Shown here: positions 1,452-26,372 of the stretch, one piece after another
Position numbering within the stretch: position 1 is the stretch's first letter
Layout of the letters: each line of letters starts with the position of its first letter
Virus record (IMG/VR): IMGVR_UViG_3300046715_000047
Span: 1-26,377 of that record
Origin: a virus
Reading direction: 5' to 3' (one strand)
DNA: 26,377 nucleotides
Program-made: the position numbers and the translations under genes
Notes under the pieces: generated by a model
Databases searched by the model: none
What the model was told of the DNA's origin: nothing
What the model saw: only the letters and a program-made list of their open reading frames with translations

Positions 1452-1910
1452 TTACGCGACGGACAGTTCGTACTCCTCGACCGCCACCGGTTCGGTCACG
1501 ACGTCCTCGACGAGCTCGGTGGCCTCCTGTTCCTTCCTGGCCGCCGCCCTCGCCTGGTCACGCGCCTTCCGCGCGATCTTCTCCGCTTCCGTCCTTGGCG
1601 GCTTCTCGATGCCCTGCTCCTTCCTCCGCTCCGCTCCGGACTTCTTCGAGGAACGGCGGCCCGCGAGGATCGCTTCCCGCTCCGGGCCGGTGGTGCCGCC
1701 CTTGATGCCGTAGACGTCGCGCTGTCGGAGGGCGTCGCCTAGGCACTCCTCCCGGACCTCACACCGGCCGCAGATCGCCAGCGCCTCCCGCACGATGTCC
1801 CCACCGCGGCCTTTCCCGACGGGCGGGTCGAACGGGTCATGCTCCGACAGGTCCATGTCCCGGCATTCGGCCTGGTCCATCCAGGCGTAGGCGTCGATGG
1901 TGCTGCTCAT
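1452..1910 (-). CDS. whiB: WhiB-like iron-sulfur transcription regulator (152 aa)
   Basis: WhiB-family proteins bind a 4Fe-4S cluster through four cysteines and act on transcription, usually through the principal sigma factor. Here the ligands are C16, C47, C50 and C56 (C...CxxCxxxxxC), followed by the turn GIKGGTT at 68-74. The usual GVWGG/GIWGG has Lys in place of Trp. Residues 85-152 form a long charged tail (many Lys/Arg/Glu/Ala, probably helical) ending in an acidic Val/Glu stretch. The ATG at 1910 overlaps the coupling-protein stop (ATGA), giving a normal-length N-terminus; the much longer in-frame ORF upstream is a shadow of the coupling-protein gene. WhiB-like genes are common on actinobacterial plasmids and phages. 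The target here is unknown; the divergent promoter at 4490-4528 is one candidate. Confidence 0.92.
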   Translation of the reverse strand: MSSTIDAYAWMDQAECRDMDLSEHDPFDPPVGKGRGGDIVREALAICGRCEVREECLGDALRQRDVYGIKGGTTGPEREAILAGRRSSKKSGAERRKEQGIEKPPRTEAEKIARKARDQARAAARKEQEATELVEDVVTEPVAVEEYELSVA

Positions 1911-3721
1911 GACGGCACCTCCTCGGCGGTGACCTGCTCCGGCATGGCGGCGATGGCGGCCGGGATGACCGGCGTGTTCGGCAGCGACAGGTTGACCCGC
2001 TTGGCGTTCTTGACCTCCCAGATCCGAGGCATCCGCAGGAGCATGGTGCGCATCCCGCCCCGGAACACGAAGGCGGTGAGCTTCTCGTTGGCGCGGATCT
2101 CCGCCGCACTCATGACGTCCTCGATGCGGTGGGAGTCGGCGGCGTCCTGCTTCTCGCCGGCGTTCTTGAATCGGGCCTTCCCGCCGAGGGTGGCGTTCTC
2201 CGCCAGGTCCTCGGCGCCGTTCCCACCGCCGTACACGATCCACGTGTTTGTGGCACCCAGGATCTCTTCGGCGGTCGAGCGGCCGTACTTCCTGCGCAGC
2301 TGCGCCTTCGACTGGACGCAGTAGGTGATGTTGACGCCGCGGCCACCCATGTCCGCCAGCCACTCCTCCAGCGGCACCTTGCACACCAGGCCCACCTCGT
2401 CGAGGCACTCGGTAACGGGCGGATCGATCCGCTCCTCCAGGCACTCGCCGGCCAAGAGGCGCTGCTGGTGGGCGATCTCACCCATGAGCGCACGGTTCAG
2501 CGGGGCCAGCACTTCCTGCTTCTCGTGGCCGAAGATGCACAGCGTCTCGTGCTCCTCGTGAAGCTTGCGGATGTCGAGCGTGTTGTCCTCGACCGGCGAG
2601 TCGCCGAGGAGGCAGGCCTTCTCGTGCTGCAGCCAGTACAAGGCCTTCTGCATGGTGTGCGTGACGGACGCCCGTGTCTTGTCGCCCTTGGAGTAGTGCT
2701 CCTTCAGCATGTACATGCGGACCTCTGCGTCGTCCCCACCTACCCGCGTGATGACCTCTTCGATCTCCGCCCTAGCCGCGCACTCCGTCGACGTGTTCCT
2801 CGGCTGGTCCGCGGACCACCGCAGCACGTCCCTCATACGCCGGTTGCTGTTCGCGGCGGCCCACATGAACAAACCGAGCAGGGGGCGGGCCGACTCGAGC
2901 CAGGTCGCGTGGTCCGGGCTGGCGTCCTCACCACCAGGCGGGATCAGGTCGATGGCACGGTCCTTCGCCGTGGTGTAGTCCTTGCAGTCAGTCAGGACCG
3001 CCCACCGAAGCGGCATCGTCAGGGTTTCCCCGCCGACGATCCACCGGCTCGTGGAGTCGATCTTCACGTAGGCGGTGGGGTTCCACGCGTGGAACGCCTT
3101 CCCGCCCTTCGTCCGCTCCTCGTAGACCCACTCGGCGACGTCCTTACGCGTCGAGGTGATGATCAGCGTGCCCGGCGCGTAGAAGGCACGGACAGCCAGG
3201 AGCGCCGACTTTCCAGACCGGGGCGCGCCCTCGATGCCGGTGGTGTCTTCCCACGGTGTCCACACCTGGTGCCAGGGTGCCCACCCCATACCGAGGGTGC
3301 CGACCAGCTGCGCGACCTCCTTCATCGGCAGCTTCTGCCGCTCCCACCACGACAGGCCACGGAGAGACGGCCGGTAGGTGTCGACATTCAGCCTCTGCGC
3401 CCCCGCCGAGACCTTCTCCCACACGTCCGACCGGGACGCCATACCGCCGTGCGTTTCGGAGTGCTTCTTACGCTTCTTCGACCAGGCGTGCGACGACCCA
3501 GGCAGCAGCACGTGGCGGGACGACCAGACTGCTGTGCAACCCGCCAGCCACAGCCCACCGCTACCAGCGGCAGCCGCAGCTACGTCCGGGTTGTGCATGA
3601 GAGCGGCGACGGTGGCCGTGATGCCCGCCGTGCCGGCGCCGATCCCGCCGGTGTTCTTAGGCCACCGGCCCTTGGCACGCCACGCCTCGAAGGCCATCGC
3701 CCGCGCATTACCCTTGCCCAT
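1907..3721 (-). CDS. VirD4/TraD-family type IV coupling protein (604 aa)
   Basis: Coupling proteins are membrane-anchored hexameric ATPases that bring the relaxase-DNA complex to a type IV secretion channel. Two hydrophobic Gly/Ala-rich segments (about 25-43 and 48-66) would anchor the N-terminus. Walker A is GAPRSGKS (165-172), Walker B is PVTECLDEVGL (435-445, D441-E442), and ITYCVQSKAQLRRKYG (465-480) matches the conserved VirD4 Gln-Ser motif after Walker B. A C-terminal basic segment precedes a short hydrophobic tail. Length fits the family (about 500-700 aa). The ATG at 3721 has AAGGAG 6 nt upstream. It lies in the leftward operon, with the WhiB-like gene coupled directly downstream. The relaxase it would serve is in the opposite operon at 6931. 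FtsK/TraB-type actinobacterial transferases lack this arrangement, so VirD4 type is favoured. Confidence 0.93.
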   Translation of the reverse strand: MGKGNARAMAFEAWRAKGRWPKNTGGIGAGTAGITATVAALMHNPDVAAAAAGSGGLWLAGCTAVWSSRHVLLPGSSHAWSKKRKKHSETHGGMASRSDVWEKVSAGAQRLNVDTYRPSLRGLSWWERQKLPMKEVAQLVGTLGMGWAPWHQVWTPWEDTTGIEGAPRSGKSALLAVRAFYAPGTLIITSTRKDVAEWVYEERTKGGKAFHAWNPTAYVKIDSTSRWIVGGETLTMPLRWAVLTDCKDYTTAKDRAIDLIPPGGEDASPDHATWLESARPLLGLFMWAAANSNRRMRDVLRWSADQPRNTSTECAARAEIEEVITRVGGDDAEVRMYMLKEHYSKGDKTRASVTHTMQKALYWLQHEKACLLGDSPVEDNTLDIRKLHEEHETLCIFGHEKQEVLAPLNRALMGEIAHQQRLLAGECLEERIDPPVTECLDEVGLVCKVPLEEWLADMGGRGVNITYCVQSKAQLRRKYGRSTAEEILGATNTWIVYGGGNGAEDLAENATLGGKARFKNAGEKQDAADSHRIEDVMSAAEIRANEKLTAFVFRGGMRTMLLRMPRIWEVKNAKRVNLSLPNTPVIPAAIAAMPEQVTAEEVPS

Positions 3722-3747
3722 GAGAGGAGCTCCTTTTTCTCTCTCAG

Positions 3748-3776
3748 CCCCGGTCGGGCCGTAATCCTGGCCGGGG
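3748..3776 (-). terminator. Hairpin between the 72-aa gene and the coupling-protein gene
   Basis: CCCCGGTC (3748-3755) pairs with GGCCGGGG (3769-3776), an 8-bp stem with one G-T wobble and a 13-nt loop. It sits in the 65-bp gap upstream of the coupling-protein start. No T tract follows on the minus strand; the next bases are purine-rich and lead into the ribosome site. It may be a weak terminator or an attenuator lowering expression of the ATPase relative to the promoter-proximal small genes. Confidence 0.35.
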
Positions 3777-3786
3777 CGCTTCTATG

Positions 3787-4483: not shown

Positions 4484-4489
4484 GACTGA

Positions 4490-4518
4490 AGCCTAGTGCT
4501 AGACATCCGTCGTGTCTA
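4490..4518 (-). promoter_or_regulatory. Leftward promoter of the divergent pair
   Basis: By exact symmetry the minus strand reads -35 TAGACA (4518-4513), 17-nt spacer, -10 TAGGCT (4495-4490). Transcription would start at or next to the ATG at 4483, so a leaderless mRNA is predicted. The two -35 boxes face each other inside the palindrome, so RNA polymerase could occupy only one direction at a time. Confidence 0.65.
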
Positions 4519-5238: not shown

Positions 5239-5415
5239 ATGAACCCCTACCGGGTCCGTCGATACGGAGAGATGTGGATCGTCCGGCACGTCGAGTTCGA
5301 TGACTGCCACTTCGGCATGTACGACAGCCACAGGGAAGCACGCAGGTCGGCCCGCGCCCACCGCCGGGGCGACCGGTGGTGGCGGCGCCGGGAGTTCCAC
5401 CGGTTCGCCACCTGA
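5239..5415 (+). CDS. Small basic WIVRH/DCHFG protein (58 aa), paralogue of the gene at 188
   Basis: 58 aa, ATG at 5239 with GGAGCAGAG upstream. Contains WIVRH, DCHFG, YD, ARR, AR and RWW in the same order and spacing as the 59-aa protein at 188-367; about 25 of 40 aligned residues are identical. Very basic C-terminal half (RRGDRWWRRREFHR). Followed at once by a strong hairpin. The duplication, one copy per divergent operon, suggests a role tied to the element's own biology; no known family is recognised. Confidence 0.78.
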   Translation: MNPYRVRRYGEMWIVRHVEFDDCHFGMYDSHREARRSARAHRRGDRWWRRREFHRFAT

Positions 5416-5490: not shown

Positions 5491-5775
5491 GTGACCAGTC
5501 AACAGCACCCGGCCCCCACCGGCCAGCCAGACCCCGAGATCTGTCGGGCACACCGCGCCGGCAAGTACCGGTGCGTCCGCCCCGCCTGGCACGACGGGTG
5601 GCACCACGAGCCCCTCGATGACGGCACCGTCCGGGCATGGCTGTTCACTGCGGAGCTCCCCTACCGGGAACCCGGGGTCGTCGTCGCCACCTCGCCAGCA
5701 CTCGACCTGTCCGACCGAAGCCTCGCCGCGACCCTCGACCAGTGGACCGCCGAGCAGTCAGGAGACCAGGCATGA
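5491..5775 (+). CDS. Small Cys/His-rich protein, possible zinc-binding (94 aa)
   Basis: GTG start at 5491 with GGAGG 5 nt upstream; the stop overlaps the next start (ATGA). Residues 18-39 (CRAHRAGKYRCVRP then AWHDGWHHEP) place C18, H21, C28, H34, H38 and H39 as possible metal ligands. The rest is acidic with no recognised domain. It is coupled to the DUF2637-like membrane protein, so the two may act together. Function unknown. Confidence 0.72.
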   Translation: MTSQQHPAPTGQPDPEICRAHRAGKYRCVRPAWHDGWHHEPLDDGTVRAWLFTAELPYREPGVVVATSPALDLSDRSLAATLDQWTAEQSGDQA

Positions 5776-6647
5776 CCGCCAGCACCACCCAGACACCCGC
5801 CGAGGTCATGGCGGATGCGCGGGCCACGTACCGCCAGTCCGCGGAATTTGGCATGCCCCTGTCAGGCCAGAAGCTCGGCGACATGTTCGGGAAGTCCCGG
5901 TCCTGGGGTCGTGACCGCATCGCCGAGGTCAAGGCGGAGGACGAAGGCCAGGCCCCGGACCCGGCTGGCACTGCCAACTCGGGTGACAGTGGCGGTGGCA
6001 CTGACAGTTCGGCTGGTGGCGGCACTGACACTGACACCACCGGGGATGACAGTGACACCCCGGACACCGACACCCCCGAAGACCCGGCGCCAGGTGGCGG
6101 TGCCACCCCTGTCATGCCATCCACGACTACCGGACCCGAGGAGCCTGTCGTCGTGCTGGCGGAGGTGCCACAAAGTGGCGGTCAGCCTGTCAATGCGCAG
6201 GTCAGCGCCCCTGCCACCCCCGTGGCGGTGCCGGCGGTCGAGGTGGCAGACACCCGGGCACCCTGGCAGGCGCGCGTCGTGGCATGGGCGTCATTCCTCC
6301 TCGGCTCCGCCGCCTCAGTGGCTGCCAACGTCGAGCATGCCAAGGACACCCCCGGCGCCAAGTTGGCAGGAGCGTTCGTGCCAATGGCACTCATCCTGGC
6401 GGTCGAGATGATGTCGCGGCCGATCTGGCAGCGCCCCGGCTGGGCCTGGCATGCCGCCCGCTACGGCGGCACCGGCCTAGTGGCACTCGTCACCGCAGTC
6501 ATGTCCTACAGCCACATGCACGGACTCCTTCTGACCTACGGAGAGACCGAGCTCAACGCAGCCATCGGCCCCCTCGCAGTCGACGGACTCATGATCGTCA
6601 GCGGCTTCGCCATCCTCGCGATGAACCAGAAGCGAGAGAAGCGCTGA
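5772..6647 (+). CDS. HTH plus DUF2637-like membrane protein (291 aa)
   Basis: Residues 29-53 (LSGQKLGDMFGKSRSWGRDR) look like a helix-turn-helix of the kind used for DNA binding. A long Gly/Thr/Asp/Pro-rich linker (about 60-160) follows. The C-terminal half carries four probable membrane helices (about 168-187, 196-214, 232-250, 263-285), ending AAIGPLAVDGLMIVSGFA, a pattern typical of DUF2637 proteins of Streptomyces and relatives, often on plasmids. The ATG at 5772 overlaps the previous stop. A longer in-frame start at 5637 would run through the 94-aa gene. The DNA encoding the linker and membrane part is unusually rich in TGGCA/TGCCA. A membrane-tethered DNA-binding role in transfer, spread or partition is inference. 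Confidence 0.8.
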   Translation: MTASTTQTPAEVMADARATYRQSAEFGMPLSGQKLGDMFGKSRSWGRDRIAEVKAEDEGQAPDPAGTANSGDSGGGTDSSAGGGTDTDTTGDDSDTPDTDTPEDPAPGGGATPVMPSTTTGPEEPVVVLAEVPQSGGQPVNAQVSAPATPVAVPAVEVADTRAPWQARVVAWASFLLGSAASVAANVEHAKDTPGAKLAGAFVPMALILAVEMMSRPIWQRPGWAWHAARYGGTGLVALVTAVMSYSHMHGLLLTYGETELNAAIGPLAVDGLMIVSGFAILAMNQKREKR

Positions 6648-6930
6648 GCACCCAAGATCGCCACGCAACGTCACCAGCAGACCCTCTAGCAGGCACGCAC
6701 AAGCGCACAAGCAGCAGGCAGAACCACTCTCTAGGCACCCACGAGGAAAGCACCATGAGCACCATCACGCCGACATCACGAAGCTATTACGAGACCCCCA
6801 GTAGGAAAGCAGTAGGACACCAGAAGCACGAGCAGCAGATTCCACACACCTATGTATCTAAATTTTGTAGGGGGCCCGCGGGCTTCGCCCGCCGGCCTTT
6901 TCCGAACGTCCGCACGTGTCAGGAGGCATC
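6648..6930. other. Leader of the relaxase gene, candidate oriT region
   Basis: The stretch between the DUF2637-like stop and the relaxase holds only one weak ORF (6755-6934). It contains two CTAG sites resembling the divergent operator (TCTAGCAGGCAC from 6685 and CTCTAGGCAC from 6729), short direct repeats of CACAAGC and GCAGGCA (about 6690-6720), and an AT-rich patch around 6850-6869 (CTATGTATCTAAATTTTGTA) unlike the rest of the window. The AT-rich patch is followed directly by an inverted repeat (6873-6897). In MobF systems the nic site usually lies next to the relaxase gene beside an inverted repeat, so this is the best oriT candidate here, but no nic consensus is certain. Confidence 0.4.
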
Positions 6931-6934
6931 GTGA
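6755..6934 (+). CDS. Doubtful small ORF (59 aa) ahead of the relaxase
   Basis: ATG at 6755 with GAGGAAAG just upstream, ending at a TGA that overlaps the relaxase GTG (GTGA), as in the coupled pairs elsewhere. Against it, third codon positions are not GC-biased (codons such as TCA, GTA, TCT, AAA and TTT occur), the ORF runs through an AT-rich patch and a hairpin, and the product (MSTITPTSRSYYETPSRKAV...) has no recognisable fold. It could be a leader peptide, a recently acquired gene, or chance coding over an oriT. Confidence 0.35.
   Translation: MSTITPTSRSYYETPSRKAVGHQKHEQQIPHTYVSKFCRGPAGFARRPFPNVRTCQEAS
6873..6901 (+). terminator. GC-rich hairpin followed by TTTT upstream of the relaxase
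   Basis: GGCCCGCGGGC (6873-6883) and GCCCGCCGGCC (6887-6897) pair with one mismatch around a TTC loop, followed by TTTT (6898-6901). It looks like an intrinsic terminator reading rightward, which would shield the relaxase from the upstream operon. Equally it could be the nic-proximal inverted repeat of an oriT. The relaxase ribosome site AGGAGG starts at 6921. Confidence 0.5.
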
Positions 6935-9900
6935 GCGTTGGGGGATCCATCGTCACGGACATGGGCTACTTCGCCGGTGGCGGCGGCGTGGCCAAGGGTG
7001 AGGAGAACTACTACACGAAGGGGGCCGGTGACGCCTCCGCGGACCGGAACGGCATCTGGAACGGGAAGCTTGCCGAGACGTGGGGCCTCGCCGGGAAGGA
7101 GGTCGAAGGTGACCAGCTGGAGACCATCTACGGGAAGTGGGTCGCGCCGGACGGTACGAAGCTGGGGCGGCAGGCCCCTTCGGCGGGCGGCGTGTTCCGT
7201 CCGATCGGGGAGCAGCTCGACGAGTGGAAGGCGGCCCACCCGGGCGCGCTTCCGGAGGCGATCGTCGAGGCGAAGAAGTCGATCGAGTCGAAGGCGCGGG
7301 ACGCGAACCTTGGGATCGACCTGACCTTCTCGGTGCCGAAGTCGTGGACGATCGAGCACACCGCCGCCTGGCGGGAGGAGATCGAGGCGGAGAGCCGGGG
7401 CGACTTGGATGAGGCGGCTCGATTCAAGTCGATCCGGGTTGGGATCGAGGAGGCGATCGAGTCCGCGAACGAGGCGTTTATGAAGGCGGTCGAGGCGACC
7501 GCGACGAGTCAGGTGGGCCATCACGGCGGGATCGGTGTGGCCGGCCGGTGGCAGAAGGTGGAGAAACTGGCGTACACCAGTTTCTTCCAGTTCACGAGCC
7601 GGGCGATCCAGCCGCAGCTTCACATCCACAACCCGATCGTTAACCGGGTCGTCTGCGAGGACGGACAGATCCGCTCCGTGGACACTGACGACCTCCTCGC
7701 GCACCGGCACATGTTCAGCGCGATCGCCGACCGGGTGGGTGCGGAGAAGCTCGCCGAGATGGGCTTCGAGATGGAGATGCGTCTCGACGACCGGGAGCGT
7801 CCGGCGTGGGAGGACAAGAGCGTTTCCCGGGAGATGGTGGAGACCGTCTCGGAGCGGCGGATGGTCATCCGGGGGAAGTTCAAGGAGCAGCTCGCCGAGG
7901 CGGAGGCGTCGGCTGGTCGGGAGCTGACGGACCCGGAGCGGTGGCGGTTGAAGCAGGCCATCACCAAGCAGACGCGGCAGCGGAAGTCGACCGCGGTGCC
8001 CGTGCCGAAGCTGCTAGAGCGGGTCCAGGAGCAGATCCAGGCGAAGCTCGCGACGGGGCTGGGGCCGATCGCGGCGCGGGCCCGGGTCGCGGTCGAGGCG
8101 CGGGATCGGGCGAGGGAGCGGGGCGAGTCGATCGCGACTGGCACCTGGTCGGAGCGGGACGTACTCCAGCGGTCTGTCGATCAGGTCACGGAGCGGCAGG
8201 CGACGTGGACGCGGGACGACCTGCTCTATCAGATTCAGGAGAACCTGCCGATCCTCGGTGTCACCGATGGTGACCGGATCACGGCGATCCTGAACCGGCT
8301 CACCGACAAGGCGCTGCAGGACGTGGGCCTGGTGACGCAGACGTCGGGGCGTGAGGGGATCGACGTGCCGCTCGAGCTCGGCGGGGCGGGCACCTACGTC
8401 AAGCCGACGGAGCAGCGGTACTCGTCGACCGGTTCCCTCGCTGCGGAGCGTGCGCTTCGTGAGGCCGCAGAGGTGAACAACCGTCACCGGGTGCCGGCAC
8501 GACACATGGAGGAGTGGCTGGACAGGCACGACCGGTACCGCACCGCCGGGGCGGACCAGCGTGCGGCGGCCGTGGGGCTGATGTCGTCGGGCCGGTCGAT
8601 CGCGACGTTCGAGGCGCCGGCGGGGACGGGGAAGTCGTTCACTCTCGGCGCGGTCGCGGAGGCGTGGGAGGACTTGTCTGGCGGTGGCCGGGTTCACGGC
8701 CTGGCTCCATCCGAGCGGGCGGCGCAGGTGCTCGAGGACGACGGGGTGAAGGTCACCGCGAACACGGCCAAGTGGCTGGCGGCGCAGGAGCGGATCGCCG
8801 GCGGGAAGGCGCTGCAGGGTGACCTGCCGTTCCGGGTGAACTTCCGGGACGTGGTGGTCATCGACGAGGCATCGATGGTGTCCACGGAGGACATCAAGGC
8901 TGTCCGGAAGATCGTCGAGGCGAAGGGTGCCCGGCTGGTTCTGTCCGGCGACCAGGAGCAGCTCTCGTCGGTCGAGGCGGGCGGGGTCCTCGGGATCCTG
9001 GACGGGTACGCCGAGACATACCGGTTGACGGACGTGCGGCGGTTCGCCGCGGAGTGGGAGGCGGCGGCGTCGCTGCGCCTCCGTGCCGGTGACGTCTCCG
9101 TGCTCGACGAGTACGAGCGGCGGGGCCGGATCGTCGACTGTGAGTCGGAGGTCGCGGCGATCGATCAGGCGGCGCGGGACGCGTTCGCCGACATGCTCGA
9201 CACGTCGGACTATGTGCGGTCGGACGGAAAGGTTGTGGAGCGCCCGGACGGGCGTGAGGTGATGGTGGTGACGCGGACGAACCAGCAGGCCGCCGCCGCG
9301 TCCGCCGCGATCCGTGAGTGGCTTGTCGCCGCCGGCCGAGTGCAGGAGGCCGGCGTCGAGCTCGAGGAGCATGGCGGGATCGCTGGGAAGGGTGACCGGG
9401 TGGCGTGCCGGGAGAACAACTTCCGCCTCGGTGTCACGAACCGACGGCTCTACACCGTCCACGAGGTGCACGCGGACGGTGGGATCTCGGTGGTCTCTCA
9501 CCGGACGCAGGAGATCCACGAGCTACCCGCCTGGTATGTGTCAAAGCACGTGGCGTCGGGGTACGCCGGTACGGCGAATGCGGTGCAGGGCATTTCGATC
9601 GACCGGACCCGGGACGTGTTCGACGGGTCGGAGAACCGGGCGGGCGCCTACGTGCCTCTCACGCGTGGCGCCGAGTTGAACGTCGCGTATGTCGCGGTGG
9701 CTAAGAAGGACGAGGACCCGTCGAAGGCGAGGGTGGAGAAGGAGTACCAGGCCGCCGGCGGTGGGGAGGCGCGCCACCGGGTCCACGAGTTCGACGGGTC
9801 GAAGGAACGTCCGACCGGTCGAGCCGTGCTGGCGGACTGTCTGAAGCGGGACGGCGCGAACCAGGACGCGGCGATCGTCATGCTCGACCGAGACGACGAG

Positions 9901-11327: not shown

Positions 11328-11356
11328 GAGGCCCGGACCGATGTGGTCCGGGCCTC
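11328..11356. terminator. Bidirectional terminator at the convergent junction
   Basis: GAGGCCCGGACC (11328-11339) and GGTCCGGGCCTC (11345-11356) form a perfect 12-bp stem with a 5-nt loop. It lies 11 nt after the relaxase stop and 14 nt from the end of the leftward phage operon at 11371. It is well placed to end both transcripts and marks the border between the transfer and phage modules. Confidence 0.85.
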
Positions 11357-11829: not shown

Positions 11830-11917
11830 GGTCGGACCTCTCCAGTGCATCGTCTGGCATCAGTTTGATAGCCATACGTGGCCTTGTCCAACCTTCTCAC
11901 CGACCACCGACAGGCGG

Positions 11918-14073: not shown

Positions 14074-14090
14074 TGGATGGTCCTATCCGG

Positions 14091-15664: not shown

Positions 15665-15683
15665 GGTTGGTTCCTTCCGCCCT

Positions 15684-19633: not shown

Positions 19634-19636
19634 GGG

Positions 19637-20085
19637 CTAGCCCTCCTTCATCTGGTCGATGATGGCCACGTACCGGTCGAACTGGTCGGCGGTGAGGTAG
19701 TCGATCTCCCACGGCTTGATGCGCAGCATCAGCAGGAAGTACGGCTCGTACTCATAAAGCCGTTCGGCGCGAGTGAGGTCACCGGCTAGGAGTCGGTCGA
19801 TCCTTTTGGGTCGTCTTCGTCGTCGTCTCCGGGCTTGGTGACCGCCTCAACTTCGACGTCGGCGAGGTTGAAGGAGACGTCCTCGAACCGCAGCCCGGGG
19901 TCGGCGCGGCGCTGCGCGACCCACACCAGGGCTGTCGTGGCGATGGCGGAGTCCCGGAGGAGCTCGTGCTGCCATTCCCGCACAGACCAGCCGGTCTCCC
20001 GCTCGACCGCGATCGCGTCGACGTTGCGGAGGGTGGACCAGTCCCACTCGAACGACTCTTCGCCGATGGTGACTCGGATCGCCAT
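19637..20085 (-). CDS. Tail assembly chaperone GT by -1 frameshift (149 aa)
   Basis: Reading the G gene to AAA at 19806-19804 and slipping back one base continues in an open frame for 55 codons, RIDRLLAGDLTRAERLYEYE onward, ending QMKEG and a TAG at 19639-19637. The fusion (94 + 55 = 149 aa) has the acidic/aromatic character of T domains (YEPYFLLMLRIKPWEIDYL). It fills the otherwise empty gap before the tape measure, exactly where G/GT chaperones are encoded. The longer form is thought to bind the tape measure and recruit tail tube subunits. Confidence 0.85.
19786..20085 (-). CDS. Tail assembly chaperone G (99 aa)
   Basis: Zero-frame product of 99 aa (MAIRVTIGEESFEWDWSTLR... ending DDDEDDPKGSTDS). 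Position between the gp10-like protein and the tape measure, small size and acidic C-terminus fit the G-type tail chaperone of siphophages, a scaffold absent from the mature virion. ATG at 20085 directly follows the stop of the gp10-like gene (TAGATG). The slippery site lies five codons before its stop. Confidence 0.88.
   Translation of the reverse strand: MAIRVTIGEESFEWDWSTLRNVDAIAVERETGWSVREWQHELLRDSAIATTALVWVAQRRADPGLRFEDVSFNLADVEVEAVTKPGDDDEDDPKGSTDS
19804..19810 (-). promoter_or_regulatory. Slippery heptamer CCCAAAA for -1 frameshifting
   Basis: On the minus strand the sequence is C CCA AAA in the zero frame (GAC CCA AAA GGA), a canonical X XXY YYZ heptamer. Slippage gives GT; no slippage gives G, which stops at 19788-19786. 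A short ACCG/CGGT stem can form downstream, but no strong pseudoknot is evident. Confidence 0.85.
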
Positions 20086-20550
20086 CTATCGCCCTTCCAG
20101 CCTTCGCATGTAACGGTCGAGGATCTGCAGGATGCGTGCCCGCACGACGGGCTCACCCTTCTTGGCTGGCCCGTCGAACCATCCGGGCCGGACAGTCTGG
20201 GGGAACCAGCTGTCGCGGTCACCGAAGAGAGGGTGCCGCCAGGACCCTCTGTTGAGGCGACGAGCCTGCTTGGCTTCCTGGCTTTTGCCTGCGACGGTGA
20301 GGCGGACGCCAGCGGATCGGGCGCCGGTGGTGACCCTGATCCGGGCGGACTTGGAGGCGTACCGCTTCCACTCCGTCGGGGCGTGCTGCAGGCCGGACAC
20401 TTCCCGGCGCTGCGCTGCCTGGATGGGTTTCACCTCGTTGCGGACTTCCTTGACCATTTCCCGGACGATCCCGGCGCGGCCCTGGGCGCGGAACCTTTTC
20501 GCCATCTTGGCGAGCTGGTCCGCGCCCCGGACCTCTATGCCCCCGGCCAT
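20086..20550 (-). CDS. HK97 gp10-like tail/neck protein (154 aa)
   Basis: 154 aa, very basic. It starts MAGGIEVRGADQLAKMAKRF, a typical opening of HK97 gp10-like proteins, followed by a helical, Lys/Arg-rich region and RVTTGARSAGVRLTVAGK. In other siphophages gp10-like proteins lie between the connector and the tail tube genes; here the gene lies just after the tail tube gene. The start at 20550 follows the tail tube stop by four bases. Confidence 0.72.
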   Translation of the reverse strand: MAGGIEVRGADQLAKMAKRFRAQGRAGIVREMVKEVRNEVKPIQAAQRREVSGLQHAPTEWKRYASKSARIRVTTGARSAGVRLTVAGKSQEAKQARRLNRGSWRHPLFGDRDSWFPQTVRPGWFDGPAKKGEPVVRARILQILDRYMRRLEGR

Positions 20551-20554
20551 CCGG

Positions 20555-20962
20555 TCAGCTGCCGTCGACCTTGGAGACTGCCGATGCGGCGTTCCAGCTG
20601 GCCTCGATGGACACGGCGTCTCCGACCCCGGAGTTGACGGTGAGGTCGGGGAGGATCGTCCCGAAGAAGTACGTCCCCAACGTCGCGACGTTGGGGTACA
20701 GGTAGAACTTGCGGGGAAGCCCGTCGACCGCGGCGTCGTAGGTCTGGTTGGTGGCGTCGTCGTAGAAGCCGGAGAACGACCCGGACGCGTCCGGCAACCC
20801 GGCCACGTAAACCTTGTTGGTGTCGCCCATGGCGGTCACGTCGGCCTTCTCCGTGGCGAACGCGATGGACCAGCTGGCGATGAAGGGCAGCGGTTCGGCG
20901 GTGGCGTCCTCGCTGGCAATGCCGAGGTAGACGCGGCCCCGGCGCCCATGGATCCTGCTCAA
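20555..20962 (-). CDS. Major tail (tube) protein (135 aa)
   Basis: 135 aa, beta-rich, with no sheath gene nearby, consistent with the single tube protein of a siphovirus tail. Segments such as SWSIAFATEKADVTAMGDTN and GLPDASGSFSGFYDDATNQT resemble tail-tube strands and loops. The start is TTG at 20962: CGGAGG lies 5 nt upstream and the TTG overlaps the glycosyltransferase stop (TTGA). Usually this is the second most abundant virion protein. Its rare start codon is offset by the excellent ribosome site. Confidence 0.8.
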   Translation of the reverse strand: MSRIHGRRGRVYLGIASEDATAEPLPFIASWSIAFATEKADVTAMGDTNKVYVAGLPDASGSFSGFYDDATNQTYDAAVDGLPRKFYLYPNVATLGTYFFGTILPDLTVNSGVGDAVSIEASWNAASAVSKVDGS

Positions 20963-21990
20963 GATGACCTCCGGTCGAGGAGCCGCAGGAGTGCGGCGGC
21001 ATGGTTGGTGAAGGTGCGGCCGGCGACCGCTTCCGCGGCTTGTGCCGCGAGCTTGTCCCGCTCCGGCTCGTGGTCGAGCCAGTAGCGGATCTGTTCGGAT
21101 GCGTCCTCGGGTGTCGCGAACGTGGGGAGCATCGACAGCACCTCGTCGCCTTCGGGGCGAGGATCCCTGAGGAAGAACAGCCCACAGGCGGCCATCTCCA
21201 CCTCACGCGGGCCCATGGCGAGCCCGTCGATCAGGTCGACGTGCTCCGCCTCACGGCGGTACAGGTTGATCCCGACCCGCGCCGACCGGTACACCTCCGC
21301 GGTGCGGTGGTTGTCGAGACACTCCTCCAGGTCATGCGCGACGTGCTTGCGCAGGGGGGAGTCGTCGGCGAGGTTCTTCCAGTTCCCGCCGAGGAGCACA
21401 TCCAGGCCGGTCAGGTCGATGCGTTCGAAGAAGTCGATCCTCGAGGTGTAGCCGGTGCCGACGAAGCCGAGGTCGCAGGCCAGGTCCGGTGTCGCCGGGC
21501 CGGGGTGGTGGGTAGCCGGGCGGTAGGCGTGGGGGACGTAGCGGGCTGGGGCCACCGCGGCGAACGCCTCGATGTTGATCGGGTCGTTCACCAAGTTCAG
21601 GTCGGCGTGCGGCGCGAGGGCGAGCTGCCGCTTGTCCTCATACGGCGACTCGGTGTGGACGAGGACGACGCGGGTGCCGGTGGCGCGCACCAGGTCGAGC
21701 AACTCGGGGGTGAGGAAGAACCCGGAGATGCCCAGCAGCACGTCCGGGCGGGTCTTGTAGAGGGTGGCGTACAGGCCGTTGATCGCGAGTTCGGCGGCCT
21801 TGTCCGGGGGCAGTGCCTGCCGGAACATGCCGTCGCCCACCTCGAGCAGTGCCGTCTCGTAGAAGGCGAGCCGGTCGGCCAGGTTGAACTCGACGACGTG
21901 CTGGCCGAGGTCCCGCAGCGCCTCCACCCAGCCCACGTAGACGTCGTGGACGGAGAAGTTGGGGCCGGGGTGGCAGGCCAGGATCTTCAC
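20959..21990 (-). CDS. CgeB-like glycosyltransferase (343 aa)
   Basis: GT-B type glycosyltransferase resembling the CgeB/Glyco_trans_1_2 group. Visible landmarks: MKILACHPGPNFSVHDVYVG at the N-terminus (first Rossmann strand and loop), DLGFVGTGY (start of the C-terminal domain), RVGINLYRREAEH, then GPREVEMAACGLFFL with the nucleotide-sugar-binding Glu, and TFATPEDASEQIRYWLDHEP near the end. The donor and acceptor are unknown. It lies between tail terminator and tail tube genes and is coupled to both (GTGA, TTGA), so its likely target is a structural protein of this phage, by analogy with glycosylated virions reported in mycobacteriophages. GTG start at 21990. Confidence 0.85.
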   Translation of the reverse strand: MKILACHPGPNFSVHDVYVGWVEALRDLGQHVVEFNLADRLAFYETALLEVGDGMFRQALPPDKAAELAINGLYATLYKTRPDVLLGISGFFLTPELLDLVRATGTRVVLVHTESPYEDKRQLALAPHADLNLVNDPINIEAFAAVAPARYVPHAYRPATHHPGPATPDLACDLGFVGTGYTSRIDFFERIDLTGLDVLLGGNWKNLADDSPLRKHVAHDLEECLDNHRTAEVYRSARVGINLYRREAEHVDLIDGLAMGPREVEMAACGLFFLRDPRPEGDEVLSMLPTFATPEDASEQIRYWLDHEPERDKLAAQAAEAVAGRTFTNHAAALLRLLDRRSS

Positions 21991-22400
21991 ATGGCCCCCA
22001 CGTTGACGAGCAGTTCGCAGCCGAGGTAGTTCACGCCGGCGTACTCGAGGAACCCGTAGTTGCGTGCCTCGACGACGGTCGCGAAGTGCACCGTGTCGTC
22101 GAGGGTGATGTCCCCGTCGACGGCTGCTTTGATGCTGCGGGCCCCCGTGTCGGACAGGTAGGCGTCGAGTGCGTCCTGTGCGGCCCGGTCGGAGGCCGTG
22201 GACACCAGCAGAGTGACGGTGAACGACACGTCGTCGGCGCCGTCCATGGTCGCGTCGTAGGTGAGGAACGTGCCCGGAGCGGGGGCGATCACCGCGGCGG
22301 GCACGACAGCCTGGCCGGGCACGGTGTCATAGACACGGAGCCCGTCGATCGTGGCGAGCCGGGCTTTGAGGGCGTCGCGGATTCCGGAGAGGGACGCCAT
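21987..22400 (-). CDS. Tail terminator/completion protein (137 aa)
   Basis: 137 aa: MASLSGIRDALKARLATIDG, LRVYDTVPGQAVVPAAVI, and a Ser/Asp stretch followed by AAQDALDAYLSDTG, a pattern I associate with actinophage proteins between the connector and tail tube that cap the tail. The ATG at 22400 lies one base after the connector stop (TGA G ATG), so an earlier in-frame ATG inside that gene is not used. Assignment rests on pattern and gene order. Confidence 0.72.
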   Translation of the reverse strand: MASLSGIRDALKARLATIDGLRVYDTVPGQAVVPAAVIAPAPGTFLTYDATMDGADDVSFTVTLLVSTASDRAAQDALDAYLSDTGARSIKAAVDGDITLDDTVHFATVVEARNYGFLEYAGVNYLGCELLVNVGAM

Positions 22401-22401
22401 C

Positions 22402-23034
22402 TCAGGCCACCAGGAGGACGTCGCGGCGATAGGGGGCGAGCCGGTTCGCGGCCATCGGGTTATCGCGGATCCGGACGACCCCGAAGTCACCGAACCCTGC
22501 GACGCCGAACGGCGCGTCGGACAGCTTGTAGCCTTCGGCGGCGAGGATCAGTGTCGCGGCCTTCACCGGGGCCGGTACGGCGGCCCATCCCCAGCGGGCG
22601 GTGACCTGCAGCCGCCCGCACCTTGCCCTGGAGGGGAACCGCCGACCGGTCGCGGCGATCATCCAGAACGGCCAGCCAGGCTCGCCGTCGACGACACCGT
22701 TGAGCGGCTGGAGCTCGTAGTCGCCTGCCGGCCAGGTGGTCTCATACACGCCGTCGCCGTCCTCGTCGGTGGCCACAACGAGGCCTGTGCCGGTGTCGAA
22801 GTCGTCGACCTCCACGACATGCGGGTCATCGACCGCATACGTCCTGGTGGACGCCACCCCGGCGTCGTTGAACTGCCGCCCGCACCACTTCTCCACCTGC
22901 CTCGAAGCGGTGGCAAGGGCGTCGCCGAGTCGAACGTTGTCGGCGTCGTCCTCGATGGACAGGTAGGTGGCGAGTTCGTCGACTGTGGCGTAACTGTCGC
23001 CGAGGGTGGGGGAAGTCCCTGCCGGTACAGGCAT
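22402..23034 (-). CDS. Head-tail connector protein, gp6-like (210 aa)
   Basis: N-terminal helix bundle SYATVDELATYLSIEDDADN followed by LGDALATASRQVEKWCGRQF, the signature of phage head-tail connector/adaptor (gp6-like) proteins. A beta insertion (YAVDDPHVVEVDDF, GVYETTWPAGDYELQPL) and a C-terminal helix (VKAATLILAAEGYKL) ending in a basic tail follow, as in actinophage connectors. It would form a ring below the portal. A 13-nt gap separates it from the beta-rich gene upstream. Confidence 0.82.
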   Translation of the reverse strand: MPVPAGTSPTLGDSYATVDELATYLSIEDDADNVRLGDALATASRQVEKWCGRQFNDAGVASTRTYAVDDPHVVEVDDFDTGTGLVVATDEDGDGVYETTWPAGDYELQPLNGVVDGEPGWPFWMIAATGRRFPSRARCGRLQVTARWGWAAVPAPVKAATLILAAEGYKLSDAPFGVAGFGDFGVVRIRDNPMAANRLAPYRRDVLLVA

Positions 23035-23047
23035 GCCAGTGACCTCC

Positions 23048-23686
23048 TCAGTAGGTGATGATCCGGGGGATCCAGGTCGGCGCCGTCGGGGCGATGACGA
23101 CGCTCAGGGCAGCCTCGTTGCGGGTGGTGCCTTCGTTTCCGCGGTTCGCGTCGGTGTAGCTCATGGACGTCACGCCGGCCGTGGGGTGGACGGCGCGGGC
23201 GAACAGGCCCGGTGCGGCGGCCAGGTTGACCACGGTGTCGATATCGGTGGCCCACACGGCGGTCGAGTTGACGCCTGCCACGGCCAGGGCGAGCTCCTCG
23301 CCCGTGGCCGAGGCCAGGGGGGTTGCAGGGATGGCCATGGCGGCGGTGGTGTTGCTGCCCAGCCCTGCGCTTGCCGAGGTGGTGATGCCTTCGCCGACGT
23401 CTCCCAAGTTGAGGCAGGCCCACGAGCCGACCGCGATACTGCCGGTCGTGACGGTGCCCGCCGTCGCGCCGGCGTCCGGGGTGACCCACAAGGCGGCCAG
23501 TCGGCGGGACACCTGGACGATCTCGGTGACGGCGATGCCGCCGCTTCCCGTCCATGCGGTGGAGTCGGCCTGGTTGCGGGACACCAGCAGGAGAAGCGCA
23601 TCCCCGGCGACGTAGGTCGGAAGGGTGACGGCAATGGTAGTGCCGCTTGCTGCCGTCCCGGTGGTCTGTACGCCGACCGTGATCAT
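23048..23686 (-). CDS. Beta-rich structural protein, possibly receptor-binding (212 aa)
   Basis: 212 aa, low in charge, dominated by Thr, Ala, Val and Gly strands: PTYVAGDALLLLVSRNQADS, VSRRLAALWVTPDAGATAGT and ATGEELALAVAGVNSTAVWA. The GDALLLL...A...V pattern occurs in jelly-roll domains of actinophage tail fibres and appendages. It is coupled to the tailspike gene (ATGA), so it may be a partner or accessory domain of that spike. No exact function can be given. Confidence 0.65.
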   Translation of the reverse strand: MITVGVQTTGTAASGTTIAVTLPTYVAGDALLLLVSRNQADSTAWTGSGGIAVTEIVQVSRRLAALWVTPDAGATAGTVTTGSIAVGSWACLNLGDVGEGITTSASAGLGSNTTAAMAIPATPLASATGEELALAVAGVNSTAVWATDIDTVVNLAAAPGLFARAVHPTAGVTSMSYTDANRGNEGTTRNEAALSVVIAPTAPTWIPRIITY

Positions 23687-25602
23687 GGGCGGAAGGTCAA
23701 GAGGACGGTAAGGCCTTTCGCGCCGGCCCCAGCCGTGTCGACGTCGACACGGACGATGTTCCCGGTCGCCACGTCGTCGTTCCCCCCGTCGATCACCGGT
23801 TGTGTCGCTGCGGTGTAGCTCGAGGTCTCACCCGCGTCGACGGTGATCGGCGTGCTAAGCATGTCGGCGTTCTGGGTGACGTTGCGAACCTGCACTGTGG
23901 TCGTCCCGGATCCCGCAGTGGTGAGGCTGGCGTGCGCCGCGACAAGGTTGGCGCCGTTGAGTTCGGCTGGGATCGTCACGTACGCCTGCCCGTCACCGGT
24001 TGCCAGGTCGGCACCGTTGGGGTCGGTGACGACGACCTGCATCATGCGGGCCGCCGGCATTGTCGTGCTTCCCGCCGCGAGGTTCAGCGGCGTCACCACC
24101 GAGTACGGGCCGAGCTGCACCCGACACCCGGCATCCACGAGAAGGGAGTTCGTCGGGTTGTTGACGGGGCTGTCCGGGTTGCCCGGCGACCCCTCAAACA
24201 GCGAGTTGATCGTGACGAACGACCCGTTCGTCACCCAGTAGGCGGTACCCACGTTCCCGATCGCATAGGGGGCGTTCAACGTGGCCTTGGAGTTGAACAC
24301 CTTCCGCGAGTAGCCGGCGTAGCCGGTCTGGAAGCTGGAGAAGTCGTACGGCTCCTCGGTGCCGCTGGAGTTCTCGGTGAGGCCGACGCAGGTGTCGTAC
24401 TCGTAGCCGGTGCCGTTCGCGTCGGCCGCGCACCCGTTGAGGGTCATGTAGGCCATCTGCTTGATGCGGTACCCGGCGCCGTGACAGCCAGCGGGGAAAC
24501 ACGAGTCGAGCGTGCACGAGGTGCCGGCTGCCTCGCCGGTGGAGTACAGGTGGATGCCGTGGCGGCCGCAGCGGAACACGGTGACCTTGCGGAAGGTCGA
24601 CACGATCGGCGTCTGCACCGCTAGGCCGTCGACCCCGAACTGTTCGATGAAGACGTTCGTGACCTCGACATAGAAGGTGGCGTTGCCCTGCGTGCCCGAC
24701 AGGGTGATGTCAACGCCGGTCGCGGTGCCGAGCCAGTCGCCGGGGCCGGTGATGTGCAGGTCCCGGATCGACACATGTGACAGGTCCACACCCACGATCG
24801 CGCTTTGGCTGGTGGAGGCGACGGTCAGAAACGTCGAGTTCTCACCCGCCCCGGCGAGGGTAACGTTCGACTTTAGGACGATCGGCGCCGCTAGGGCCCA
24901 CGTCCCGGCGGCGATATGCACCACCCCGCCACTCGTCGGGAGGGCGTTGATGCCCGCCTGCACAGTGGCGAATGCGGTGCCAGGCGACCGCCCGTCATTA
25001 CCGTCGGATCCTCCCGTGGACACGTACCGAACGGCGTCATTCGCCGCATGGTGGGCGACACCGTAGGTAGTGCCCATGTCCGGGATCCGTCCTGCCGGGA
25101 CGTTCTGTGCGACCTGGCCGGACCCGTCAAGGCTGGCTACACCAGAAGGCGCGCCCTTCTGCGCCGCCGGGAGTGCCGCGGCGGCTACCCCTGCCGCCGT
25201 CTCCGCAGTCCCTTGCGCGGTCTCGGCAGCCGTCTGAGCGCCCGCGGCCGCTACTGCGGCGCCGTCCGCCGCATCCAATGCATCTGTCGCCGTTGCCTGT
25301 ACCGAGTCGATCCGATCATCGGCCCGCGCGTAGACAGGGGCGGCGGGCCCGCCGCTGACGACGACGTACACGCTGTCAACACCGTCCGGGCCGAGGAACA
25401 GCGGCAGGCGGGAGTATTCATCGACCGTGAGCGCCGACCCCGTTACCGGAGTGCCATCCGGCAGTTCGATGTCTGCGAGGGTGGTCGCCGCGGCGTCAAC
25501 GTAGACGGTGGCGACCACACCTGTCGCGGTTCGCAGCGAGTCCCCTGCAGTCCGGTACACCAGACGGGAGCCCTCATCGGGGAAAGTCAGCCGCGACACC
25601 AT
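23683..25602 (-). CDS. Large beta-helix tailspike (639 aa)
   Basis: N-terminal beta domain (about 1-98; DEGSRLVYRTAGDSLRTATG), an Ala-rich coiled coil (about 100-150; AAGAQTAAETAQGTAETAAG), a linker with GVASLDGSGQVAQN, then a right-handed beta-helix beginning SDGNDGRSPGTAFATVQAGI and GGVVHIAAGTWAL, with many short Asn/Val/Gly rungs to about 480. The C-terminal 150 residues (AYVTIPAELNGANLVAAHAS, TTTVQVRNVTQNADML) form a probable jelly-roll tip. The layout matches trimeric spikes that bind surface glycans. ATG at 25602 has GAGGAG upstream and directly follows the methyltransferase stop (TAGATG). Confidence 0.85.
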   Translation of the reverse strand: MVSRLTFPDEGSRLVYRTAGDSLRTATGVVATVYVDAAATTLADIELPDGTPVTGSALTVDEYSRLPLFLGPDGVDSVYVVVSGGPAAPVYARADDRIDSVQATATDALDAADGAAVAAAGAQTAAETAQGTAETAAGVAAAALPAAQKGAPSGVASLDGSGQVAQNVPAGRIPDMGTTYGVAHHAANDAVRYVSTGGSDGNDGRSPGTAFATVQAGINALPTSGGVVHIAAGTWALAAPIVLKSNVTLAGAGENSTFLTVASTSQSAIVGVDLSHVSIRDLHITGPGDWLGTATGVDITLSGTQGNATFYVEVTNVFIEQFGVDGLAVQTPIVSTFRKVTVFRCGRHGIHLYSTGEAAGTSCTLDSCFPAGCHGAGYRIKQMAYMTLNGCAADANGTGYEYDTCVGLTENSSGTEEPYDFSSFQTGYAGYSRKVFNSKATLNAPYAIGNVGTAYWVTNGSFVTINSLFEGSPGNPDSPVNNPTNSLLVDAGCRVQLGPYSVVTPLNLAAGSTTMPAARMMQVVVTDPNGADLATGDGQAYVTIPAELNGANLVAAHASLTTAGSGTTTVQVRNVTQNADMLSTPITVDAGETSSYTAATQPVIDGGNDDVATGNIVRVDVDTAGAGAKGLTVLLTFRP

Positions 25603-26109
25603 CTACTCCTCGCGTTCGTCGCCGTGGACGGCGGTAGCCCTCACGTCGGCGGGACGGTCCTGCTGGTCGATGGTGATATCGACGAACCCGGCTGTTTTGA
25701 GGACCGTGTGCAGGTCGAGCGGGTCGATGTTCGCGTAGTGCTCACCCGACTTCAGGGCGGCCCCGTCGAACGCGGAGTGCGCGGCCCGCCCGGGGCCGGC
25801 CATGGTGGCGATGAACAGCCCGCCCGGCTTGAGAACGGCGTAGGCCGTGTGGCAGATGCTGTGCCACACAGCGGTGTGTTCGAACACCTCGCAGCACACC
25901 ACGACGTCGAACCGGTCGTCGGTCTCCCACGTCGCGGCGTCGGCCACCACGTCCACACCCTCACCGGGCATCACGTCGAGGGTGAGGTAGTCCGCGGCGG
26001 GGAACAGGTCGCGGATGGTGCCGTTGATGTTGCGGCCACCGATCTCGAGGACGTGGACCGGCTCGTTCGTGGCGTATCGGGCGACCCATTCACGTGCCTG
26101 CTGGTGCAT
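25603..26109 (-). CDS. Class I SAM-dependent methyltransferase (168 aa)
   Basis: Rossmann-type methyltransferase: motif I VLEIGGRNINGT, acidic ribose contact YLTLDVMPGEG, motif DVVADAATWETDDRFDVVVC, then CEVFEHTAVWHSICHTAYAV and LKPGGLFIATMAGPG. All elements are present, so activity is likely. The sequence belongs to the Methyltransf_11-like group acting on small molecules, sugars or proteins and shows no DNA-methylase DPPY-type motif. It lies just upstream of the large tailspike gene and shares the late operon with a glycosyltransferase. A role in modifying a virion glycan or a structural protein is inference. Confidence 0.85.
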   Translation of the reverse strand: MHQQAREWVARYATNEPVHVLEIGGRNINGTIRDLFPAADYLTLDVMPGEGVDVVADAATWETDDRFDVVVCCEVFEHTAVWHSICHTAYAVLKPGGLFIATMAGPGRAAHSAFDGAALKSGEHYANIDPLDLHTVLKTAGFVDITIDQQDRPADVRATAVHGDEREE

Positions 26110-26111
26110 GG

Positions 26112-26372
26112 TCAGTCAGCGTTTCCGTCGGTGGTCCTGTCCGAGGACCGTGCGCGACGGGTGCTGACGCTGCGCTTCTCGCCGGGAGCCGCCGTTGCCT
26201 GCTCAACCGCAGGCTCGACGTCGTAGTCGACGTCGAGGATTTTGAACATGCCCGGGTTGCGGGTGAGCAGCGGGTGACCCTCACGGACCCGTGTCCGGTC
26301 CTTGTGGATGAAGTGCCGCTTGCCGTCCACGACCAGCATGGCCGACTGGGTGGCGACATAGATGTCAGCCAT
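26112..26372 (-). CDS. Small head-region protein (86 aa)
   Basis: 86 aa. MADIYVATQSAMLVVDGKRH, then RTRVREGHPLLTRNPGMF and ILDVDYDVEP, is a pattern seen in actinophage genes that follow the major capsid gene. The C-terminal 25 residues are basic and disordered. Start ATG at 26372, five bases from the edge. It suggests that capsid, portal and terminase genes lie just to the right, outside the window. Confidence 0.72.
   Translation of the reverse strand: MADIYVATQSAMLVVDGKRHFIHKDRTRVREGHPLLTRNPGMFKILDVDYDVEPAVEQATAAPGEKRSVSTRRARSSDRTTDGNAD

Follow-up and report, generated by a model that had tools for sequence, protein, structure and literature searches.

The 26,377-bp stretch of viral DNA held as IMG/VR record IMGVR_UViG_3300046715_000047 (hereafter the window, meaning the whole stretch) joins genes for a MobF relaxase-helicase and a VirD4/TraG-type coupling protein (T4CP) to the tail and lysis genes of a siphovirus-type phage. 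Judged by its gene content, we give somewhat better than even chances to the window being part of an actinobacterial siphophage with a plasmid-type mobilisation cassette, one that could be mobilised through a helper element's channel and would not be conjugative by itself. The pairing of relaxase and phage genes is real and recurs in other viral contigs, and spread by two routes is plausible from these sequences.

The IMG/VR entry comprises the entire window, is classed as linear and is probably a genome fragment; genes for terminase, portal, capsid and replication therefore fall outside it. The GC content is 65–71% along the whole length, and megablast with bases 1–25,000 found no match in 72,556 plasmid or 50,697 phage records. 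The genes and sites that make up the transfer cassette and its junction with the phage genes are as follows.

702–1358, minus strand: helical transfer-cassette protein of 218 residues, with a conserved place next to the T4CP both in phages and in plasmid-type elements
1452–1910, minus strand: WhiB-type regulator between the T4CP and the 702–1358 gene (Pfam Whib, 4.4e-14; open-frame coordinates, start provisional)
1907–3721, minus strand: VirD4/TraG-type coupling protein (T4CP), 604 residues (TraG-D_C, T4SS-DNA_transf and TrwB_AAD_bind over the Pfam cut-offs)
5772–6647, plus strand: DUF2637 protein (Pfam DUF2637, 1.2e-08; frame open from 5637, start at 5772 chosen)
6840–6871, plus strand: candidate origin of transfer (oriT)/nic element, 32 nt, 59 bp before the relaxase start
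6931–11316, plus strand: MobF relaxase-helicase, 1461 residues (NCBIfam MobF, Pfam TrwC, AAA_30)
11328–11356, no strand: terminator-like stem common to the relaxase gene and the late operon, 12-bp stem

An initial annotation, made from the letters alone, had described an intact VirD4-like ATPase (1907–3721), an intact 1461-residue relaxase-helicase (6931–11316) and an intact late operon (11371–26372) meeting at a shared terminator. Both transfer genes bear this out: their frames are open, three Pfam families exceed their cut-offs in the ATPase, and TrwC, AAA_30 and NCBIfam MobF do so in the relaxase. The late operon is borne out as to its connector, tail and lysis genes and is incomplete in that terminase, portal and capsid are not on the window. 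The terminator is present as a pattern, a 12-bp stem between the two stop codons. Only 54 bp separate the relaxase stop from the last late gene, with this one palindromic terminator-like stem between them, although a scan for such stems overall gave no more sites than shuffled sequence.

By model match, predicted fold and helicase motifs, the window relaxase belongs to MOBF. It scores 137.5 bits against NCBIfam MobF (cut-off 100) and 139.9 bits against Pfam TrwC (1.7e-40; cut-off 25), and its C-terminal superfamily 1 helicase matches AAA_30 at 3.2e-48, with APAGTGKS and VIDEAS motifs in the alignment. The narrower NCBIfam relax_trwC and TraA/TraI models match below their cut-offs, and PHROG places part of the protein under Dda-like helicase. 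A structure predicted for residues 1–390 (mean predicted local distance difference test (pLDDT) score 82.3) has 27 PDB matches at E ≤ 0.001, all of TrwC/TraI type, the top one being TrwC and the next TraI. The hallmark of MOBF enzymes is a set of N-terminal catalytic tyrosines together with a three-histidine metal site. The tyrosine pair is retained at positions 27–28, within a loop of low model confidence, and two of the three metal histidines are retained as H231 and H233.

The T4CP aligns with a Walker A motif (GAPRSGKS) and a DE motif, which, with its three Pfam families, place it among VirD4/TraG proteins; the NCBIfam VirD4-like CD1115 model matches it below that model's cut-off. The 218-residue protein has no match in Pfam or NCBIfam, and its predicted structure (mean pLDDT 64.6) has no PDB match at E ≤ 0.001. 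Its homologues adjoin the T4CP in three viral contigs introduced below (G002, G004 and G006), lie at the contig end in a fourth (G001) and also occur at host loci. The DUF2637 gene likewise adjoins the cassette in G004, is annotated in plasmid L003 and is found in some actinobacterial plasmids with MobF and T4CP. Two small paralogous proteins with IVRHPELNDCHFGLYD and IVRHVEFDDCHFGMYD stretches (188–367, minus strand; 5239–5415, plus strand) flank the T4CP.

To find other phages with this pairing, viral contigs were scanned with an alignment of the window relaxase and three plasmid relaxases. Seven IMG/VR contigs (G001–G007), from seven different metagenome codes, match the relaxase over a long stretch; this number is a lower bound, because the best 80 of 116 relatives were kept. 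Single-protein scans of viral contigs with the tape measure or the relaxase gave nothing useful. In a second scan, with the head-tail adaptor, the best 80 of at least 575 relatives were retained and 36 of these, many of them short, were searched whole. Among the 45 records searched whole (nine from the relaxase scan, 36 from the adaptor scan), nine match the relaxase, including the more distant members G008 and G009, and three match the T4CP.

By the strand of the gene calls, the relaxase gene is convergent with a phage operon in six of the seven contigs. Four of these (G001, G002, G003 and G005) are convergent by strand, the phage operon of G003 and G005 being recognised from the IMG/VR classing and homology. 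The T4CP adjoins the relaxase in G002, G004 and G006, and the contigs G001, G003 and G005 stop where it would be expected. Terminase was found in G002, G004, G006 and G007, portal and capsid in G004 and G006, and portal in G007, in which the relaxase precedes the terminase and portal genes. The terminase match of G002 (C1:6626–8302) runs through one stop codon.

The two longest assemblies are the most informative. G004 (69 kb) encodes, on one strand, a tyrosine integrase, DUF2637, the T4CP, the partner protein and the relaxase, and its convergent late operon contains terminase, Phage_portal, HK97 capsid and tape measure genes. G006 (72 kb) has terminase, an SPP1-type portal, a P22-like coat protein and a tape measure and, beyond these late genes, a convergent relaxase and T4CP, a serine recombinase and a primase-polymerase. 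A collagen-like gene similar to that of the window lies near the late-operon end in both. Between the two contigs, relaxase identity is 88% over 93% of the G004 protein and T4CP identity is 59%, whereas the portals and capsids belong to different families. The cassette thus appears to move between phages, and the contrast is a strong sign of module exchange.

The late module also occurs apart from the cassette. None of the 36 adaptor-bearing contigs searched whole carries the cassette; one of them, G017 (48 kb), has terminase, portal, an HK97-type capsid homologue, adaptor, tail terminator, glycosyltransferase and tape measure genes, but no match to the relaxase or the T4CP. The initial annotation had called for related genomes with both modules and had regarded a phage part inserted into a conjugative plasmid and absent from relatives as evidence against a conjugative or mobilisable phage. 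The seven further contigs provide such genomes, and the 36 adaptor-bearing contigs, in which the cassette is missing, partly bear out such an absence; the module therefore seems to come and go, rather than being fixed in the phage lineage.

An element upstream of the relaxase genes, with the common consensus CACACCTA(G/T)GCATcACGATCcGatGG, was examined as a possible oriT. A motif matrix was built from 30 of 50 non-phage (plasmid and host) upstream regions and included no window or phage sequence; the pattern by which these 30 were chosen was composed after both the regions and the window copy had been seen. When the whole window was scanned with this matrix, positions 6840–6871 scored best, at 24.4 bits, with the runner-up at 7.4 bits; in 200 dinucleotide shuffles of the window, the motif maximum was 17.7 bits and the mean 6.6. 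Among the 20 upstream regions outside the matrix, seven exceed 24.4 bits, two lie at 15–18 bits and 11 fall below 10. Clear sites in other elements end 8–136 bp ahead of the start codon, except that those of L200 and L217 overlap an early-called start. The best motif site lies immediately upstream of the relaxase in G003 (17.1 bits) and G007 (14.4 bits), and the window copy retains CACACCTATG. A search upstream of the relaxase for hairpins and repeats found no hairpin in common.

The reverse complement of the consensus, GC(C/A)TAGGTGTG, resembles the nic region of the F plasmid, GCGTGGGGTGT|GG. The F nic sequence is given as GTGGGGTGT|GG in the consulted part of PMC7755788 and also appears in the TraI oligonucleotides described in that of PMC5422253. 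Positions 6840–6871, resembling an F-type nic site, are a candidate oriT.

Relatives of the relaxase were then sought in plasmids and host genomes. In plasmids (tblastn), the 40 matches listed of 3,157 are actinobacterial MobF proteins with 26–32% identity, and 30 records cover at least 80% of the window relaxase. The host scan covered 84,980 species with one genome each, and the best 80 of at least 459 relaxase relatives were kept. The longest kind of match was seen at 38 host loci (L195–L230, L262 and L271), in Pseudonocardia, Actinomycetospora, Kribbella, Kineosporia, Amycolatopsis, Microlunatus and others. A T4CP match is present on the same locus in 31 of the 38, and integrase- or recombinase-like hits in five (L199, L202, L203, L207 and L223); a tblastn search (1e-5) of the flanks taken, with the head and tail genes of the window and of the seven contigs, gave no hit. 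Phage_portal, the sole portal family searched, was found in three of the 32 host genomes that hold 35 of these loci. In Kribbella jiaozuonensis (G060 C1:2286638–2333379; L287–L289), a T4CP, a relaxase, a serine recombinase and a prophage with portal, terminase and tape measure lie within 47 kb. The relaxase and the prophage are about 33 kb apart, with the serine recombinase and two tRNA genes between them, and the prophage tape measure is 42% identical to that of the window over 114 residues; the two may be a single element or neighbours. Scaffolds C1 and C5 of this genome have about 73 kb in common, with every aligned piece 100% identical and a single difference in length, of about 50 bp; this is likely to be an assembly duplication, so C5 does not constitute a second case of relaxase and prophage.

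A quick tree was computed from 58 relaxases, leaving out near-locus rows of 1000 residues or fewer and most of L231–L274. The seven viral rows require three label changes: five of them (L015–L018 and L020) make up one starred clade, L021 is placed on its own, and the window groups with L195 and three Kineosporia rows. According to a warning from the tree program, both the window and L195 sit on long branches, which makes their sister relationship uncertain. The simplest reading of this topology is that at least two phage lines took up a relaxase separately, and ancient carriage of the relaxase with subsequent losses may be an alternative. More broadly, the comparison may point to a class of actinobacterial temperate siphophages with a complete relaxosome (oriT, MobF relaxase-helicase and their own coupling protein), gained on no fewer than two or three separate occasions by phages whose heads are unrelated, and for such phages movement of single-stranded DNA from lysogens through the channels of other elements would be a second true route of spread; we hold this tentatively, at a little under even odds.

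The initial annotation had also proposed a conjugative or mobilisable phage. A VirB4-type ATPase would be expected of a self-transmissible conjugative element. The VirB4-type family PF12846 was found in none of the eight contigs (the window and G001–G007, several of them fragments), nor was FtsK/SpoIIIE (PF01580), and phmmer with three proteins from the type IV secretion system (T4SS) region of plasmid L011 gave no match at E ≤ 1 in the eight contigs. The VirB4 test is a weak one, because the hit of L011 itself falls below the PF12846 cut-off and some of the contigs are fragmentary. The second half of the proposal is the one that survives: the recurrent pairing and the candidate oriT ahead of the relaxase make a mobilisable phage a fair reading, and no VirB4-type gene was found that would make it self-transmissible.

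We propose the following scheme. In the carrier cell, presumably a lysogen, the MobF protein would nick the minus strand within 6840–6871 and remain on its 5′ end, and its helicase part would unwind the nicked strand. The phage-encoded VirD4-type protein would then pass the relaxase and the strand to a channel built by another element, and the phage genome would arrive in a new cell in single-stranded form, with no virion involved. In the alternate state, the late operon would produce virions. For relaxase plasmids of Mycobacterium abscessus, a type VII system has been suggested as the channel (PMC8092301, in the part consulted); by analogy, the helper channel here could be of that kind.

Several observations weigh against this scheme. 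Downstream of CACACCTATG, the window copy of the motif diverges from the consensus, and an element ahead of a relaxase start could be an operator. Among the viral contigs, the motif site of G001 is weak (10.5 bits) and lies between the partner gene and the relaxase; G004 (best 8.1 bits) and G006 (best 10.5 bits) have no good site; G002 lacks the motif near the relaxase and has a 15.7-bit site 6 kb away on the opposite strand; and G005 is cut inside the relaxase, leaving no upstream region for the scan. No T4CP match was detected across the 35 kb of G007. The fragment shows neither an integrase gene nor head genes of the window phage. In the relaxase itself, Gln220 aligns with a histidine of pCU1 TraI in the PDB alignment, which we take to be the first metal ligand, and Phe221 stands where most relatives have a neighbouring histidine, L195 differing there as well. 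Gln occupies position 220 in all 21 aligned rows, and the more distant plasmid relaxases L010, L011, L013 and L014 have His. The idea that a lost histidine sets the window relaxase apart was dropped: the canonical histidine aligns with Gln220, which the nearer relatives have in common, so the window departs from them only at the neighbouring site.

These observations bear on a rival explanation in which the relaxase-helicase and T4CP no longer act in conjugation and instead serve phage DNA metabolism, through origin nicking, rolling-circle or plasmid-state replication, or hyphal segregation. The altered metal site, the absence of a clear motif in G004 and G006, the Dda-like assignment of part of the protein and the failure to find a T4SS channel gene in the eight contigs would all fit such a role. 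The company that the relaxase keeps argues the other way. The T4CP and the 218-residue partner accompany it in G002, G004 and G006, as DUF2637 does in G004, the only one of these three examined for that gene; the cassette also resembles that of MOBF plasmids typed as mobilisable (L003 and L014). We know of no use of a coupling protein in replication. On balance, a role in DNA metabolism is unlikely, though it is the strongest of the rivals.

The remaining alternatives question whether the two halves belong together. A recent fusion of a prophage with a mobilisable plasmid or integrative element, one half now a decaying passenger, would account for the adaptor-bearing contigs without relaxase and T4CP (all 36, many of them fragments, G017 included), for host genomes that have the cassette without head or tail hits in the flanks taken, and for the 33-kb spacing in K. 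jiaozuonensis. Against this, the main frames are all open and the junction is a compact common terminator; moreover, the five other phage relaxases L015–L018 and L020 form one starred clade, as for an established phage lineage. Tetranucleotide composition differs between the left and right sides of the junction by 0.192, no more than across the equivalent regions of G004 (0.227) or G006 (0.198). We therefore regard fusion as improbable, a little more so than a role in DNA metabolism. For a metagenomic record, a chimeric assembly of plasmid and phage contigs is conceivable, and when the window was split every 1,500 bases the composition difference had a slight maximum near the junction (0.240 at 12,000, with 0.223–0.225 at 7,500–10,500). 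A one-off chimera was nonetheless deemed unlikely, because a related MobF gene is linked to phage genes in seven further IMG/VR contigs; with a sensible convergent junction and a left–right difference comparable to those of G004 and G006, we put its probability very low. A mobilisable siphophage is thus the explanation that we prefer.

The phage side of the window comprises a tape measure, a tail terminator, a head-tail adaptor and lysis genes, as in siphovirus-type tailed phages. Its genes are listed below from the junction outwards.

11371–11850, minus strand: last late-operon gene, 159 residues (open frame; no Pfam or PHROG match)
12061–12288, minus strand: small protein of 75 residues, holin-like by place only (open frame; no family over cut-off)
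12285–13076, minus strand: endolysin, N-acetylmuramoyl-L-alanine amidase (Pfam Amidase_2, 8.6e-16)
13076–13753, minus strand: collagen-like fibre protein (Pfam Collagen, 1.5e-14)
14091–15140, minus strand: tail spike with pectate-lyase fold, start inferred (Pect-lyase_RHGA_epim, 8.4e-15, and PHROG tail spike, both obtained with the longer frame 14091–15659)
15134–15664, minus strand: probable minor tail protein, by place, 176 residues (open frame; no Pfam match)
15684–17135, minus strand: tail protein, by place and homology, 483 residues (weak homologues in L095, L128 and L129; no Pfam match)
17135–19633, minus strand: tape measure protein, 832 residues (PHROG tape measure, 7.3e-13)
19786–20085, minus strand: tail protein at the tail-assembly-chaperone position (phrog_17335 tail, 1e-4)
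20086–20550, minus strand: structural-operon protein, 154 residues (phrog_11991, 1.1e-21, a family of unknown function)
20555–20839, minus strand: probable major tail protein, by place and conservation, 94 residues (51–74% identity in related viral loci; no Pfam match)
20959–21990, minus strand: glycosyltransferase within the structural operon (Pfam Glyco_trans_1_2, 1.7e-15)
21987–22400, minus strand: tail terminator (phrog_17840, 1.2e-34, obtained with the longer frame 21987–22490)
22402–23034, minus strand: head-tail adaptor (phrog_442, 1.7e-25)
23048–23686, minus strand: 212-residue protein (open frame; no Pfam or PHROG match)
23683–25602, minus strand: second, weak pectate-lyase-like protein, 639 residues (Pfam 1.6e-4, below cut-off)
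25603–26109, minus strand: S-adenosylmethionine methyltransferase within the structural operon (phrog_32762, 1.9e-19; Pfam Methyltransf_23)
26112–26372, minus strand: head-tail connector at the contig end (phrog_9538, 3.6e-6)

The tape measure matches 473 phage records, with at most 37% of the protein covered in the 40 matches listed. The glycosyltransferase and methyltransferase genes are retained in related contigs, for example L097, L102, L107, L115 and L142, and their products possibly modify virion proteins. In a search of 397 host genomes of one order with the glycosyltransferase, four matched, one of them strongly (G141); that genome has homologues of the phage genes and no relaxase match within the 40 kb taken.

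Gene transfer by phages and gene transfer by mobilisable plasmids are, as a rule, treated as two distinct routes. If the proposed scheme is true, a phage that has a relaxosome could get into cells without its receptor and into cells resistant to its virion, helper plasmids could move such a phage, and surveys that class elements as either phage or mobilisable would miscount such an element. With eight contigs, a recurrent cassette and a candidate oriT, the question can be put to the test in actinobacteria that grow in culture.

Among the literature matches listed, which leave out most subscription papers and all bioRxiv preprints, no siphophage with a MobF and VirD4 pair was found. In the phage collection, the window relaxase and T4CP have no match outside the records of Mycobacterium phage Adler (two of them for the relaxase), and the G004 relaxase matches the Adler records and two short unannotated contigs. 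Adler (KF981876; L004, L275 and L276) was considered as a phage precedent and set aside, as it has no phrog_9 terminase and no annotated head or tail gene. Annotated in its record are FtsK-type, EccD, VirD4, ParA and relaxase genes, and there is a VirB4-like match; on these grounds it resembles a conjugative plasmid labelled as a phage, and perhaps is one. Against this, hypothetical genes predominate in it, one gene is noted as similar to a protein of mycobacteriophage Barnyard, and a single terminase family was searched.

Other systems share one feature or another with the window. The prophage Phi1207.3 is reported to move by a conjugation-like process (PMC4260502); in the part of its main text consulted, the word relaxase is absent and the mechanism is given as unknown. 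P1-like phage-plasmids and the plasmids derived from them (PMC10879196) also link phage-plasmids to mob and oriT, but, in the part consulted, these mark plasmids that have lost phage functions, unlike the window. The Streptomyces plasmid-phage pZL12, as described in the consulted part of PMC3583192, is an actinobacterial phage-plasmid with a transfer function, which requires a major tra gene and adjacent genes, and no relaxase and T4CP pair is mentioned there; the same source describes Streptomyces Tra proteins as FtsK-like translocases. The Pseudonocardia broussonetiae phage-plasmid (L005) and Streptomyces pFP3 (L006) combine head genes with DUF2637, pFP3 adding WhiB and ParA, and the stretches examined (24.3 of 27.4 kb and 31.0 of 34.1 kb, respectively) carry no MobF or VirD4 annotation. 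L005, which is circular and 27 kb long, encodes an FtsK/SpoIIIE protein in addition to DUF2637 and HK97-type genes and is possibly a second kind of transfer-competent phage-plasmid. The actinobacterial T4SS-type integrative and conjugative elements of PMC3218068 have a MOBF relaxase and a VirD4-type T4CP, as the window does; in the part consulted they were sought by VirB4-like and int genes, whereas the search of the window yielded no VirB4-like gene and the fragment has no integrase.

Further parallels come from each side of the junction. On the phage side, the head-tail adaptors of the Rhodococcus phages Shagrat, Jflix2, REQ1 and Madraxi are 41–45% identical to that of the window, and the gene order of Shagrat/REQ1-type phages is similar to that of the window. 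On the plasmid side, the relaxase of L003 faces its T4CP, whereas that of the window faces the late operon. Plasmids of Streptomyces tendae (35 kb), Amycolatopsis (pA387, 30 kb) and Natronoglycomyces (p1) name no phage gene in the stretches examined, in which most genes are hypothetical, and DUF2637 is annotated only in that of S. tendae. All three nevertheless encode the same MobF and T4CP families as the window, their relaxases are 29–31% identical to that of the window over 85–88% of its length, and they have the same upstream element.

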